Source: Pseudomonas urmiensis
GTDB lineage: Bacteria > Pseudomonadota > Gammaproteobacteria > Pseudomonadales > Pseudomonadaceae
Direction of reading: 5' to 3'
DNA: 64,000 nucleotides
NCBI RefSeq assembly: GCF_014268815.2
Contig: NZ_JABWRE020000001.1
Coordinates: 3,353,001 to 3,417,000 of the forward strand
Part shown: in pieces, positions 13,990 through 29,286 of the stretch
Layout: each line of letters opens with the position of its first letter
Numbering within the stretch: position 1 is the first letter of the stretch
Translations under genes and position numbers: made by a program
Notes under the pieces: generated by a model
The model's database searches: none
What the model was told of the DNA's origin: nothing
Seen by the model: only the letters and a program-made list of their open reading frames with translations

Positions 13990-14183
13990 TGAGTGGTGCC
14001 AGTGCTGGCCTCATCGCGGGGCAAGCCCGCTCCCACGCCAGATCAACTTCAAGACTGCGGGGGATTGAGTGGTGCCAGTGCTGGCCTCATCGCGGGGCAA
14101 GCCCGCTCCCACGCAGGTTTGGGGTGATCTACCAGGCAGGTTTGAGGCTGATCTCACGTGGGAGCGGGCTTGCCCCGCGATAG
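13990..14183. repeat. REP cluster with 49-bp duplication
   Basis: Three REP cores lie at 14013-14036, 14089-14112 (direct) and 14158-14181 (inverted). The first two are embedded in an identical 49-bp segment at 13990-14038 and 14066-14114, i.e. a recent local duplication that includes flanking non-REP sequence. Confidence 0.85.
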
Positions 14184-26133: not shown

Positions 26134-26655
26134 TTAGCCGACCAGCGCCTGCAAGCGCGCAGCGGTGTCGACCGCGCCCATGGTTTGGGCGGCGGCAAGG
26201 GCATTGGCGCCCCGGGCATCCTGACGCGCAGGGTCGGCGCCCTGGGCCAGCAGGTAGTCGACAATTTCGCTGCGATTGAACATCGCCGCCAGCATCAACG
26301 CTGTACGCCCATCGGCGGCGGCGGCATCCACCGGTACGCCGTGCTCGAGCAGCAGGCGAATCATCGCCAGATCGCCCTTGAACGCGGCGCCAGCGATGGG
26401 CAACTGGCCGTTGTCGTTAGCCATCAACGGATCGGCGCCATGGCTCAACAGCACCTGCACGGCATCATGATGGCCATGGTAGCTGGCAAGCATCAGCAGG
26501 GTATCGCCCTTGTGGTTGCGCAGATTGGCCGGCAGGCCGCTGGCGAGCAAACGCCCCAGCATCGGGGCATCACCGCGGCGAGCGCGCTCGAACACCTCTT
26601 CGGCAAAGGCTGCGGCTTCGTCGTCGTTCATGGTGGCGGGCTGTTGGTCGGACAT
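26134..26655 (-). CDS. Ankyrin-repeat protein
   Basis: 173 residues with about four ankyrin repeats (about 35-165). Repeat signatures are NHKGDTLLMLASYHGHHDAV, NDNGQLPIAGAAFKGDLAMI and AADGRTALMLAAMFNRSEIV, each followed by a helix pair. It is a protein-protein interaction scaffold with no enzymatic motif; the partner is unknown. Start at 26655 (MSDQQPATMN). It is divergent from the DUF3509 gene, with about 268 bp between them. Confidence 0.88.
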   Translation of the reverse strand: MSDQQPATMNDDEAAAFAEEVFERARRGDAPMLGRLLASGLPANLRNHKGDTLLMLASYHGHHDAVQVLLSHGADPLMANDNGQLPIAGAAFKGDLAMIRLLLEHGVPVDAAAADGRTALMLAAMFNRSEIVDYLLAQGADPARQDARGANALAAAQTMGAVDTAARLQALVG

Positions 26656-26758
26656 TCTGAACCTCCTGGCAAAATTTAGAGCCCAAGTCTTTGTCAGGCA
26701 CCCCTGAGGGGTCAAAGGTTCAGATTCTATTGGGCCCAGAGGCTGGCTCTATGGCCTT

Positions 26759-26800
26759 GCAAAATGCACTGTGCAAAATGCACGACCATGCACTATGCAC
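26759..26800. promoter_or_regulatory. Cluster of TGCAC repeats upstream of DUF3509 gene
   Basis: GCAAAATGCAC occurs twice (26759-26769 and 26773-26783, 14 bp apart), followed by CATGCAC and TATGCAC. The cluster sits in the divergent promoter region between the ankyrin and DUF3509 genes, about 125-165 bp before the latter. It may bind a regulator; unproven. Confidence 0.4.
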
Positions 26801-26923
26801 GAAGACCTCCTTTTCAATATCCTTTAAGTCACTGATTTTAAAGGAATTTAATAGATAACGAAGACTGGCACGGTCACTGCAACGATCAACTCACGTCTGC
26901 CAACACAACAGTCAGGAGTTGAT

Positions 26924-27196
26924 ATGGACCTCATTCAGCAAAAGTTCGCCTCGGTGTTTTCCGCCTACCAGGTCGCTACCCAGGCCCGCCCGGACGGCGG
27001 CATCCTGCTGACCCTGCGTGCCGCTGATGGCGTGGTCACCCGCCGGGTACTGACTTACGGCCAACTGCACAGTGCCGAGCAGCTGTCGTGGGCGATCAGC
27101 GCGATTCGCCGTGACCTGGCGGAACAGGCCAGTGAGCTGCCAGTGATCTCGATGCTGCAGAGCCAGCAGCGGTTTGCGCTGCCGACTTACCGCTGA
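26924..27196 (+). CDS. DUF3509 domain protein
   Basis: 90 residues matching the Pseudomonas DUF3509 family: MDLIQQKFASVFSAY at the start, LTLRAADGVVTRRVL in the middle, and a C-terminal helix with RDLAEQ. Function unknown; such proteins are small and cytoplasmic. A strong Shine-Dalgarno (AGGAG) precedes the ATG. The stop lies 17 bp before the tandem REP array. Confidence 0.85.
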   Translation: MDLIQQKFASVFSAYQVATQARPDGGILLTLRAADGVVTRRVLTYGQLHSAEQLSWAISAIRRDLAEQASELPVISMLQSQQRFALPTYR

Positions 27197-27212
27197 GTGT
27201 CAGTACCACTGC

Positions 27213-27581
27213 TATCGCGGGGCAAGCCCGCTCCCACGTAGTTTCCTGCTGAAGCTGATTACGTGGGAGCAGGCTTGCCCCGCGAGGGCTCCCACGTAGT
27301 TTCCTGCTGAAGCTGATTACGTGGGAGCGGGCTTGCCCCGCGAAGGCTCCCACGTAGTCTCCTGCTGAAGCTGATTACGTGGGAGCGGGCTTGCCCCGCG
27401 AGGGCTCCCACGTAGTTTCCTGCTGAAGCTGATTACGTGGGAGCGGGCTTGCCCCGCGAAAGCTCCCACGTAGTTTCCAGCTGAAGCTGATTACGTGGGA
27501 GCAGGCTTGCCCCGCGATGGCTCCCACGTAGTTTCCAGCTGAAGCTGATTACGTGGGAGCGGGCTTGCCCCGCGATAGGGC
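27213..27581. repeat. Tandem REP-derived array, six 58-bp units
   Basis: Unit starts (CCCACGTAGT) are at 27233, 27291, 27349, 27407, 27465 and 27523: exactly 58 bp each. Each unit contains a full inverted REP core (GTGGGAGCGGGCTTGCCCCG) plus the non-REP linker TTTCCTGCTGAAGCTGATTA, and adjacent units create palindromes of the form ACGTGGGAGC ... GCTCCCACGT. Units differ by single bases (AGG/GGG, CTG/CAG, T/C). The array is preceded by one extra REP at 27213. Confidence 0.93.
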
Positions 27582-27595
27582 CGGAGTGCTAAACC

Positions 27596-28132
27596 TCAGA
27601 ATTCGTCGATACCCGCAAACTCCAGCGCAGCCGCATCACCGGTAAACCGCGGAGCCTTCGCCTGCTCATCGCGGAACAACCGCAGCGCCAGACAAAACGG
27701 CGTATCCCCCAGGTCAATCCAACGCCGAACCTGGGCCGGCACAATGAGCACATCGCCCTTCTCGCACAGCACGGCATACACATACTCACCCACCCGCAGG
27801 GTGACCTGAGCCCGCCCGCTGATCACCGCGAACACCTCATCGCCGCCATGCACATGCTCGTTACGCAGATCGACCTGCGCCGCATCCACGCCATCACGGT
27901 TGAGCAACGCATAGGCCGCACAGCCATGCTCGGTCATCAGCCGATCCAATGGCTCACGGCAGGCGTCGAGCACTTCGTCCTGACCCGTCCCAGGGCGAAC
28001 CCGCAGCTCATGCGGTTGATGCATGAAGCGCACGCCCTGCTCGGCGAGGGTCGCGACAATGTCGTCATGGTGGGTCAGCAACTTGTTGGGAAGGCCCGGG
28101 CTTGACGGGTGAAAAACGCTGAGGATGCTCAT
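27596..28132 (-). CDS. Acireductone dioxygenase-like cupin, altered metal site
   Basis: 178 residues and co-linear with MtnD, the acireductone dioxygenase of methionine salvage (LSVFHPSSPGLPNKLLTHHD, then NEHVHGGDEV and VYAVLCEKGDVLIVPA). Three cupin ligands are kept: His93, His95 and Glu99. The fourth, normally His in a K-H-W-F-D-x-G segment, is Arg137 here (VRRWIDLG). Metal binding or chemistry may therefore differ from true MtnD. It overlaps the MFS gene at its 5' end (TGATG), so the two are co-translated. Confidence 0.85.
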   Translation of the reverse strand: MSILSVFHPSSPGLPNKLLTHHDDIVATLAEQGVRFMHQPHELRVRPGTGQDEVLDACREPLDRLMTEHGCAAYALLNRDGVDAAQVDLRNEHVHGGDEVFAVISGRAQVTLRVGEYVYAVLCEKGDVLIVPAQVRRWIDLGDTPFCLALRLFRDEQAKAPRFTGDAAALEFAGIDEF

Positions 28133-29286
28133 CAGGGGCTGTTCCTGCTATCGGTCATTCGAGTTGCAATGATAACGGCTGCGGCAAAGGCTGCGACGCT
28201 GGCCATACCAAAGGTGAAGTGTGGGCCCAGCAATTTCCAGCTGTAGCCCGAATACAAGGCGCCTAACGCGCCGCCTGTGCCCGACAACGCCGCGTACAGC
28301 GCCTGGCCCTGACCTTGCTGGCGTGCGCCGAAGCTGGATTGGACGAAGGCGATCGAGGCGGCGTGGAAACAGCCAAAGGTTGCGGCATGCAACAGCTGGG
28401 CGAAGATCAGCGCGGCCGGGACTTCGGCCAGATTACCCAACAGCAGCCAGCGCAGCCCCGCCAGGACAAAGCTGAGCAGCAGCACCCGGCGCACCGAAAA
28501 GCGCGCGAAGATCCGGCTCATGGCCATGAACATCAAGACCTCCGCTACCACCCCTAGCGCCCACAGCAAGCCGATACTGCCGCGGCTGTAGCCCAGGTGT
28601 TCCAGGTGCAGGGTAAGGAAGGTGTAGTACGGCCCGTGGCTTAGCTGCATCAGCGCCACGCACAGATAGAACGCAATCACCCCAGGCGCCAGCAGCTGGC
28701 GCAGAAAGCCCCCTGCCCCGCTACGCTCGGCATGTTCCACCGGCTGGGCATTGGGCACCCACAGGCTGGCGAGGAAGATACCGGCCATGATGGTGACCAG
28801 CGCCACCGGGTAGATATCCAGGCTCAACCATTCGAACAGCCGGCCCAGGCCCACCACGGTGAGGATGAAGCCAATCGAGCCCCACAGCCGCACCTGGCTG
28901 TAGCGTGAGGTCTGGCCATGCAGGTGGGCCAGGGTAATCACCTCGAATTGCGGCAGTACCGCATGCCAGAAGAACGCATGCAGGGCCATCACCAGCGCCA
29001 GCCAGGCGTAGCTTTTACCGAAGAAGATCAGCGAGAACGTCGCCAGGGTCGACAACGCGCCCAGGCGCACGATCAGCAGGCGCTGGCCGCTGCGATCTCC
29101 CAGCCAGCCCCACAGGTTGGGGGCGAGGCAACGCATCAGCATGGGGATGGCGACCAGCTCGCCAATGCGCGCCGGGGAGAAGCCGAGGTGATCGAAGTAC
29201 AACGCCAGGAACGGCGCGGTGGAGCCGAGCAGGGCGAAGTAGAACAGGTAGAAACTGGACAGGCGCCAGTAGGGAATTGGCGTCAT
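28132..29286 (-). CDS. MFS transporter, HcaT-like
   Basis: 384 residues, twelve membrane segments, of the HcaT (3-phenylpropionate) branch of the MFS: YWRLSSFYLFYFALLGSTAP at the start, GWLGDRSGQR in loop 2-3, and RLWGSIGFILTVVG. Substrate unknown. The stop at 28132-28134 overlaps the ATG of the downstream cupin as TGATG, indicating coupling. The cupin-transporter pair may therefore be one functional unit. Confidence 0.8.
   Translation of the reverse strand: MTPIPYWRLSSFYLFYFALLGSTAPFLALYFDHLGFSPARIGELVAIPMLMRCLAPNLWGWLGDRSGQRLLIVRLGALSTLATFSLIFFGKSYAWLALVMALHAFFWHAVLPQFEVITLAHLHGQTSRYSQVRLWGSIGFILTVVGLGRLFEWLSLDIYPVALVTIMAGIFLASLWVPNAQPVEHAERSGAGGFLRQLLAPGVIAFYLCVALMQLSHGPYYTFLTLHLEHLGYSRGSIGLLWALGVVAEVLMFMAMSRIFARFSVRRVLLLSFVLAGLRWLLLGNLAEVPAALIFAQLLHAATFGCFHAASIAFVQSSFGARQQGQGQALYAALSGTGGALGALYSGYSWKLLGPHFTFGMASVAAFAAAVIIATRMTDSRNSP

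Follow-up and report, generated by a model that had tools for sequence, protein, structure and literature searches.

REPs and REPINs are known to occur in tandem. Bertels and Rainey (2011, PMC3116915) report 16 ordered REPIN clusters as well as evenly spaced REP arrays in SBW25, and tandem REP/REPIN arrays also appear in PMC3733652, so that the statement in an earlier note on the present DNA, that REPs are normally singlets or inverted pairs, is not supported. Such clusters can also shrink, as a tandem cluster of six REPINs in E. coli lost five copies during mutation accumulation (PMC8049555). With respect to position, PMC3733652 places the REPs of convergent gaps in P. entomophila mostly less than 20 bp from both gene ends. 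Here, we describe a tandem array that lies between two convergent genes in a 64-kb window (the whole stretch of DNA that was analysed) and probably consists of one REPIN enlarged from within. Literature searches found no paper on this locus, and no wider absence is claimed. The features of the locus are as follows.

26924..27196, plus strand: DUF3509 gene (PF12021, 8.4e-34), with 18 bp between its stop codon and the inverted REP
27212..27578, no strand assigned: whole expanded REPIN, an inverted REP plus six 58-bp units with ends CTA/TAG (from the sequence, TRF, and unit columns with flanks)
27215..27285, no strand assigned: 71-bp REPIN (inverted REP, spacer, REP) at the left end of the array (26-bp arms 96% complementary; fold)
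27215..27237, minus strand: complete inverted REP of type A, the reverse complement of GTGGGAGCGGGCTTGCCCCGCGA
27230..27287, plus strand: unit 1 (from unit columns)
27288..27345, plus strand: unit 2 (from unit columns)
27346..27403, plus strand: unit 3 (from unit columns)
27404..27461, plus strand: unit 4 (from unit columns)
27462..27519, plus strand: unit 5 (from unit columns)
27520..27577, plus strand: unit 6, which keeps the right end of the original REPIN (...GCGATAG) (from unit columns)
27596..28132, minus strand: convergent ARD-family gene (PF03079 above cut-off, Cupin_2 below), with its stop 20 bp past the last REP

The earlier note had reported a six-unit array with a period of exactly 58 bp at 27213-27581, flanked by a DUF3509 and a cupin gene. 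The array is borne out by TRF, which at 27230-27575 returned 6.0 copies of a period of 58 with 95% matches and 0% indels; its score of 629 compares with 50 and 71 for the other two rows of the 64-kb window. Repeat finding agrees, the start-to-start distance of 58 recurring five times. The span given earlier is off by a few bases at most, and both gene assignments agree with the domain matches above, the ARD family being part of the cupin superfamily. The six units cover 27230-27577, about 0.35 kb. Variation among them is confined to columns 14, 18, 42, 57 and 58, and every unit is distinct. The pattern at the junctions between units has five exact forward matches, no reverse match and no control match genome-wide, and these five are the array junctions alone, which excludes chance. 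The order of the REPs is <>>>>>>, with only the first inverted, and each unit starts inside the left REP, leaving out the first 15 bp (27215-27229), which hold most of the palindromic core. A unit is thus the REPIN minus 15 bp plus two junction bases, a net loss of 13 bp. Because the 15 bp ahead of unit 1 (27215-27229) complete an inverted REP, the array reads as iREP-(spacer-REP)x6 rather than as six copies of a REP plus linker. The complementary outermost triplets, CTA (27212-27214) and TAG (27576-27578), are present only at the two ends of the array, and the five internal junctions carry GG, AG, GG, AA and TG instead.

The left 71 bp of the array is an ordinary REPIN, in which two inverted REPs and their spacer combine in one hairpin; folded as single-stranded DNA, 27215-27285 reaches -34.7 kcal/mol (z -10.4). 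Loci of the same REP type elsewhere in the genome follow this plan in four of the five cases tried (L002, L004 and L006 at 71 bp, L005 at 72 bp; L008 does not fit). The supposedly unique non-REP linker is the spacer of this REPIN: one of these loci, L002, carries a closely similar spacer (GTAGTTCGCTGCTGATGTTGATTAC there, GTAGTTTCCTGCTGAAGCTGATTAC in the array), and the idea of a unique linker was dropped. The view that a REP was joined here to foreign DNA is thereby corrected. Type-A REPs number 745 sites genome-wide at up to 2 mismatches (368 forward and 377 reverse, array copies counted; control 0). In the window, REPs of two types give 26 matches, seven of them in the array and one inside a roughly called gene. 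Another REPIN of the window, at 14090-14180, has a spacer with a 23-bp two-copy tandem repeat (14109-14154), which may be an incipient spacer expansion of the kind described below for genome G389.

A RAYT partner for this REP type is present. A search of the genome for Y1 transposases, of the kind proposed in the earlier note, recovered two genes. NCBIfam NF047646 identifies both as RAYTs, at 147 and 151 bits against a cut-off of 80. The one in L079 (147 bits) has type-A REPs, the REP type of the array, on its flanks:

L079:1395-1417, strand not given: perfect type-A REP beside the RAYT
L079:1975-1997, strand not given: type-A REP with 2 mismatches beside the RAYT

This cognate RAYT presumably moves the REPIN. 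The second RAYT, in L078, is flanked by another REP type. Directly upstream of it lies a six-copy tandem REP array with a period of 114 (L078:1952-2647; G000:C1 near 5285813), and on its other side a 46-bp array of 4.2 copies (L078:1189-1380).

For RNA of the gap between the two genes, the predicted folding energy is -253.8 kcal/mol, where shuffles average -164 (z -17.7; 0 of 100 as good), and the predicted structure has one long stem closed by the outermost REPs. The internal REP palindromes are each flanked by GTGGGAGC and GCTCCCAC, so that an alternative, longer hairpin would be possible there, but this alternative came out weak when tested against 200 shuffles (z -2.9, with 4 of them as good). 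An Rfam family identity was considered and dropped, as nothing in 26600-28300 matched at gathering score. Several GTGCA/TGCAC inverted motifs, e.g. GTGCATTTTGCAC, lie upstream of the DUF3509 gene in a divergent gap (26758-26803 of the window) and could be an operator or another repeat.

The site was compared across 49 orthologous gaps from other genomes (29 loci, then ten and a further ten). These comprise all 45 other genomes whose cupin match reaches E <= 1e-60 and four with weaker matches; genomes with only partial or no cupin matches were left out, any match being present in 235 of 298. A DUF3509 search of 57 relatives gave a match in 30. No close relative and no second genome of the species was found in genus draws of 298 and 398 genomes, where the best cupin match was 78%. 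The genes are tail-to-tail in all 49 gaps, as the earlier note described them here, and 41 of 49 gaps fold significantly better than shuffles (z <= -3, 60 dinucleotide shuffles each; z <= -5 in 32 of these). An energy of -15 kcal/mol or lower is reached in 43 of 49, a threshold that is no real test in GC-rich DNA. By eye, many of these gaps are REPINs of other sequence types, and the DUF3509/ARD slot usually carries a palindrome. The hairpin slot is nevertheless not essential, since six gaps are bare (10-24 bp long) and two of the other 43, L127 (z -2.6) and L133 (z -1.6), do not reach z -3.

A 58-bp array of the present kind occurs in none of the 49 gaps. TRF on the gaps longer than 40 bp found an array of at least three copies in G389 and in none of the 48 others, among which L139 has one two-copy 19-bp repeat. 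In G389 (L119), a 46-bp unit that folds on its own is repeated 5.6 times inside that genome's own REPIN in the orthologous DUF3509/ARD gap (L119:2074-2328), and a 25-base piece of the unit, searched at up to 3 mismatches, occurs in that genome only within the array, five times. Arrays are therefore found at this gap in two of 50 genomes, with units unrelated in sequence. If one array of at least three type-A units per genome with 745 REP sites (several hundred loci) is taken as the rate, which does not count spacer-only expansions, the roughly 41 occupied gaps should contain about 0.1 further arrays, and one was observed, so that an excess over chance at this one site is suggestive only. The independent array in G389 may mean that the site itself favours expansion. 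A tentative and rather doubtful extension is that the gap is a recurrent expansion site, filled by unrelated REPINs, where at least two species independently amplified a palindromic unit (58 bp here, 46 bp in G389) and kept the outer inverted REPs as a long closing stem. If so, REPINs between convergent transcripts would be prone to, or selected for, internal expansion, driven perhaps by RAYT strand transfer or by the collision of convergent transcription, and recurrence across species would make the gap a natural test bed for convergent transcription versus RAYTs as the driver of repeat growth.

Tandem REP arrays at other loci place the present one in a wider class. At least three same-direction REPs of related type, about 43-73 bp apart, occur in 22 of 298 genus genomes; the own genome is included in the 298 and scores 0, because its REP does not fit the related-type pattern. 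One array from each of the 22 genomes has a main period of 55-73 bp and 2.3-11.5 copies by TRF, and in four of the 22 (L095, L105, L106 and L107) an inverted REP heads the direct ones. Two of these, L106 (G011) and L107 (G216), represent one and the same 55-bp array, at orthologous positions in two species. The REP counts are 7 and 10, and identity is 98% over array plus right flank and 89% over left flank plus array, indicating that unit number changes in this class. The idea that such arrays are typical of type-A REPs in other species was dropped, as exact short-spaced direct pairs of this type occur in three of 298 genomes: the own genome has seven (five being the array), whereas G170 and G271 have a single one. 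In a broad collection of genome contigs, from which the window's own record may be excluded, the exact junction pattern was found in four stretches (two Sphingomonas, one Novosphingobium and one Bacteroidales). By a rough gene caller based on codon usage, 11 of 24 arrays (own included) lie between convergent genes and 11 (L078 included) between same-direction genes, with two undecided; these contexts are not relied on, because the orthologous L106 and L107 were called differently.

The reading that we favour, and consider quite probable, is a lineage-specific local expansion of a REPIN in a shared 3'-end hairpin slot, originating by slippage, with a hairpin role at the 3' end and a near-neutral unit number. 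A founding REPIN, of a type dispersed in this genome, would have lodged in the tail-to-tail DUF3509/ARD-like gap, and a 58-bp segment comprising the remnant of the left REP arm, the spacer, the right REP and two junction bases would then have been duplicated locally to six. The confinement of CTA and TAG, the ends of a single REPIN, to the outer borders indicates growth inside one element rather than several insertions. Hairpin-skipping slippage during replication is the preferred start, since the missing 15 bp, most of the palindromic core, are what a polymerase skipping the hairpin would drop; continuation may have involved slippage or unequal exchange. A private base at column 18, common to the neighbouring units 5 and 6, fits stepwise duplication. 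Some details run against this reading, besides the gaps that are bare or fall short of z -3 and the independent array in G389. Units 1 and 5, which lie far apart, alone carry an A at column 42, a pattern not expected from plain stepwise duplication. The junction bases show an excess of change (3 of the 6 minimum changes fall in 2 of 58 columns; post hoc binomial probability about 8e-4), which simple copying of one junction via unequal exchange does not predict. The latter fits independent junctions or a mutable site and is not fully explained. As to role, the most economical one, judged from position and comparison, would be that the underlying 3'-end hairpin, rather than the number six, protects the ends of both convergent mRNAs and limits read-through antisense, insulating both transcripts; unit number itself is probably near-neutral.

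The main rival, which we regard as improbable, holds that the array was made by a RAYT, a truncated single-stranded REPIN with one intact and one cut end having been circularised and then copied or joined repeatedly into a head-to-tail multimer. The genome does contain a cognate RAYT, its second RAYT has the six-copy, 114-period REP array upstream, and the unit is asymmetrical (net 13 bp short, at one end), as are the putative excised REPINs of SBW25 (PMC3116915); however, the truncation differs from the roughly 6 bp given there. Similarly, the junctions read GC|TCCC and C|T is the cleavage site of E. coli TnpAREP (PMC8266576), but C|T is a common dinucleotide and, in another enzyme, a GTAG-to-GTGG change moved cleavage to CC (PMC8266576), GTGG being what precedes the palindrome here. 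Moreover, the junction bases differ from unit to unit, the base private to units 5 and 6 agrees with stepwise growth, and neither RAYT lies near the array.

Positive supercoils collide between convergent genes, and this position would suit an array selected for binding or topology (gyrase, IHF or RAYT), with its unit number under selection. Although REPs or BIMEs of E. coli interact with IHF, gyrase and Pol I (PMC3686654), we judge such selection unlikely here: none of the 49 orthologous gaps has this array. A different one, of more than five copies, is present in one of them, and TRF on gaps over 40 bp detected none of at least three copies in the remaining 48. IHF binding, suggested earlier, is not favoured, as no site in the array matched the IHF consensus, the best having 4 mismatches on either strand. 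Helical phasing of the units was dropped as well, as 58/10.5 gives 5.52 turns, so that with a period of 5.5 turns successive units do not lie on one helix face. Strong hairpins, no more than 20 bp from either stop codon, would suit a bidirectional intrinsic terminator, yet this was rejected as highly unlikely for want of a T run: a scan for a GC stem followed by a T run found none within the array, and T or A tracts of at least 4 (gap ends excluded) are present in seven of the 49 orthologous gaps but absent here. Assembly can collapse or expand tandem repeats, and the unit number might therefore be an artefact; this has very little probability, because the six units are all distinct and thus placeable, and because the array spans a short stretch inside a contig of more than 5.5 Mb.

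The locus has regularly spaced, near-identical units that include non-REP sequence (period 58, 95%), as in tandem REP/REPIN clusters. It shares with the REPIN tandem clusters and GI arrays of SBW25 the head-to-tail order, the regular spacing, the near-identity of units and the presence of cognate RAYTs, and its layout resembles the evenly spaced GI sequences of that Pseudomonas fluorescens strain (PMC3116915); it differs in REP sequence and in a unit that is a REPIN without most of one REP. The spacing from the neighbouring genes, 18 and 20 bp, is much like that of the convergent REPs of P. entomophila (mostly below 20 bp; PMC3733652). Like the BIMEs of E. coli, BIME-2 in particular, it is an extragenic tandem cluster of REPs (PMC3686654), but BIMEs alternate REP orientation (PMC2817692), whereas all REPs here except the first point one way. 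The L106 and L107 arrays likewise have an inverted REP followed by direct REPs at close to REPIN spacing, but with another REP type, spacer and locus and with a unit that lacks the inverted-arm remnant. In G389, too, a palindromic unit was expanded in tandem within a REPIN of this tail-to-tail gap, but there the spacer alone was amplified and not the REP, and the sequence is unrelated. Tandem expansions of this sort are already known in this bacterial group, and the array adds a new and well-resolved instance without being a different kind of object. It is a clean case of a REPIN turned into a tandem array, in which the outer ends of the founder, the lost piece and the order of the units can all be read.
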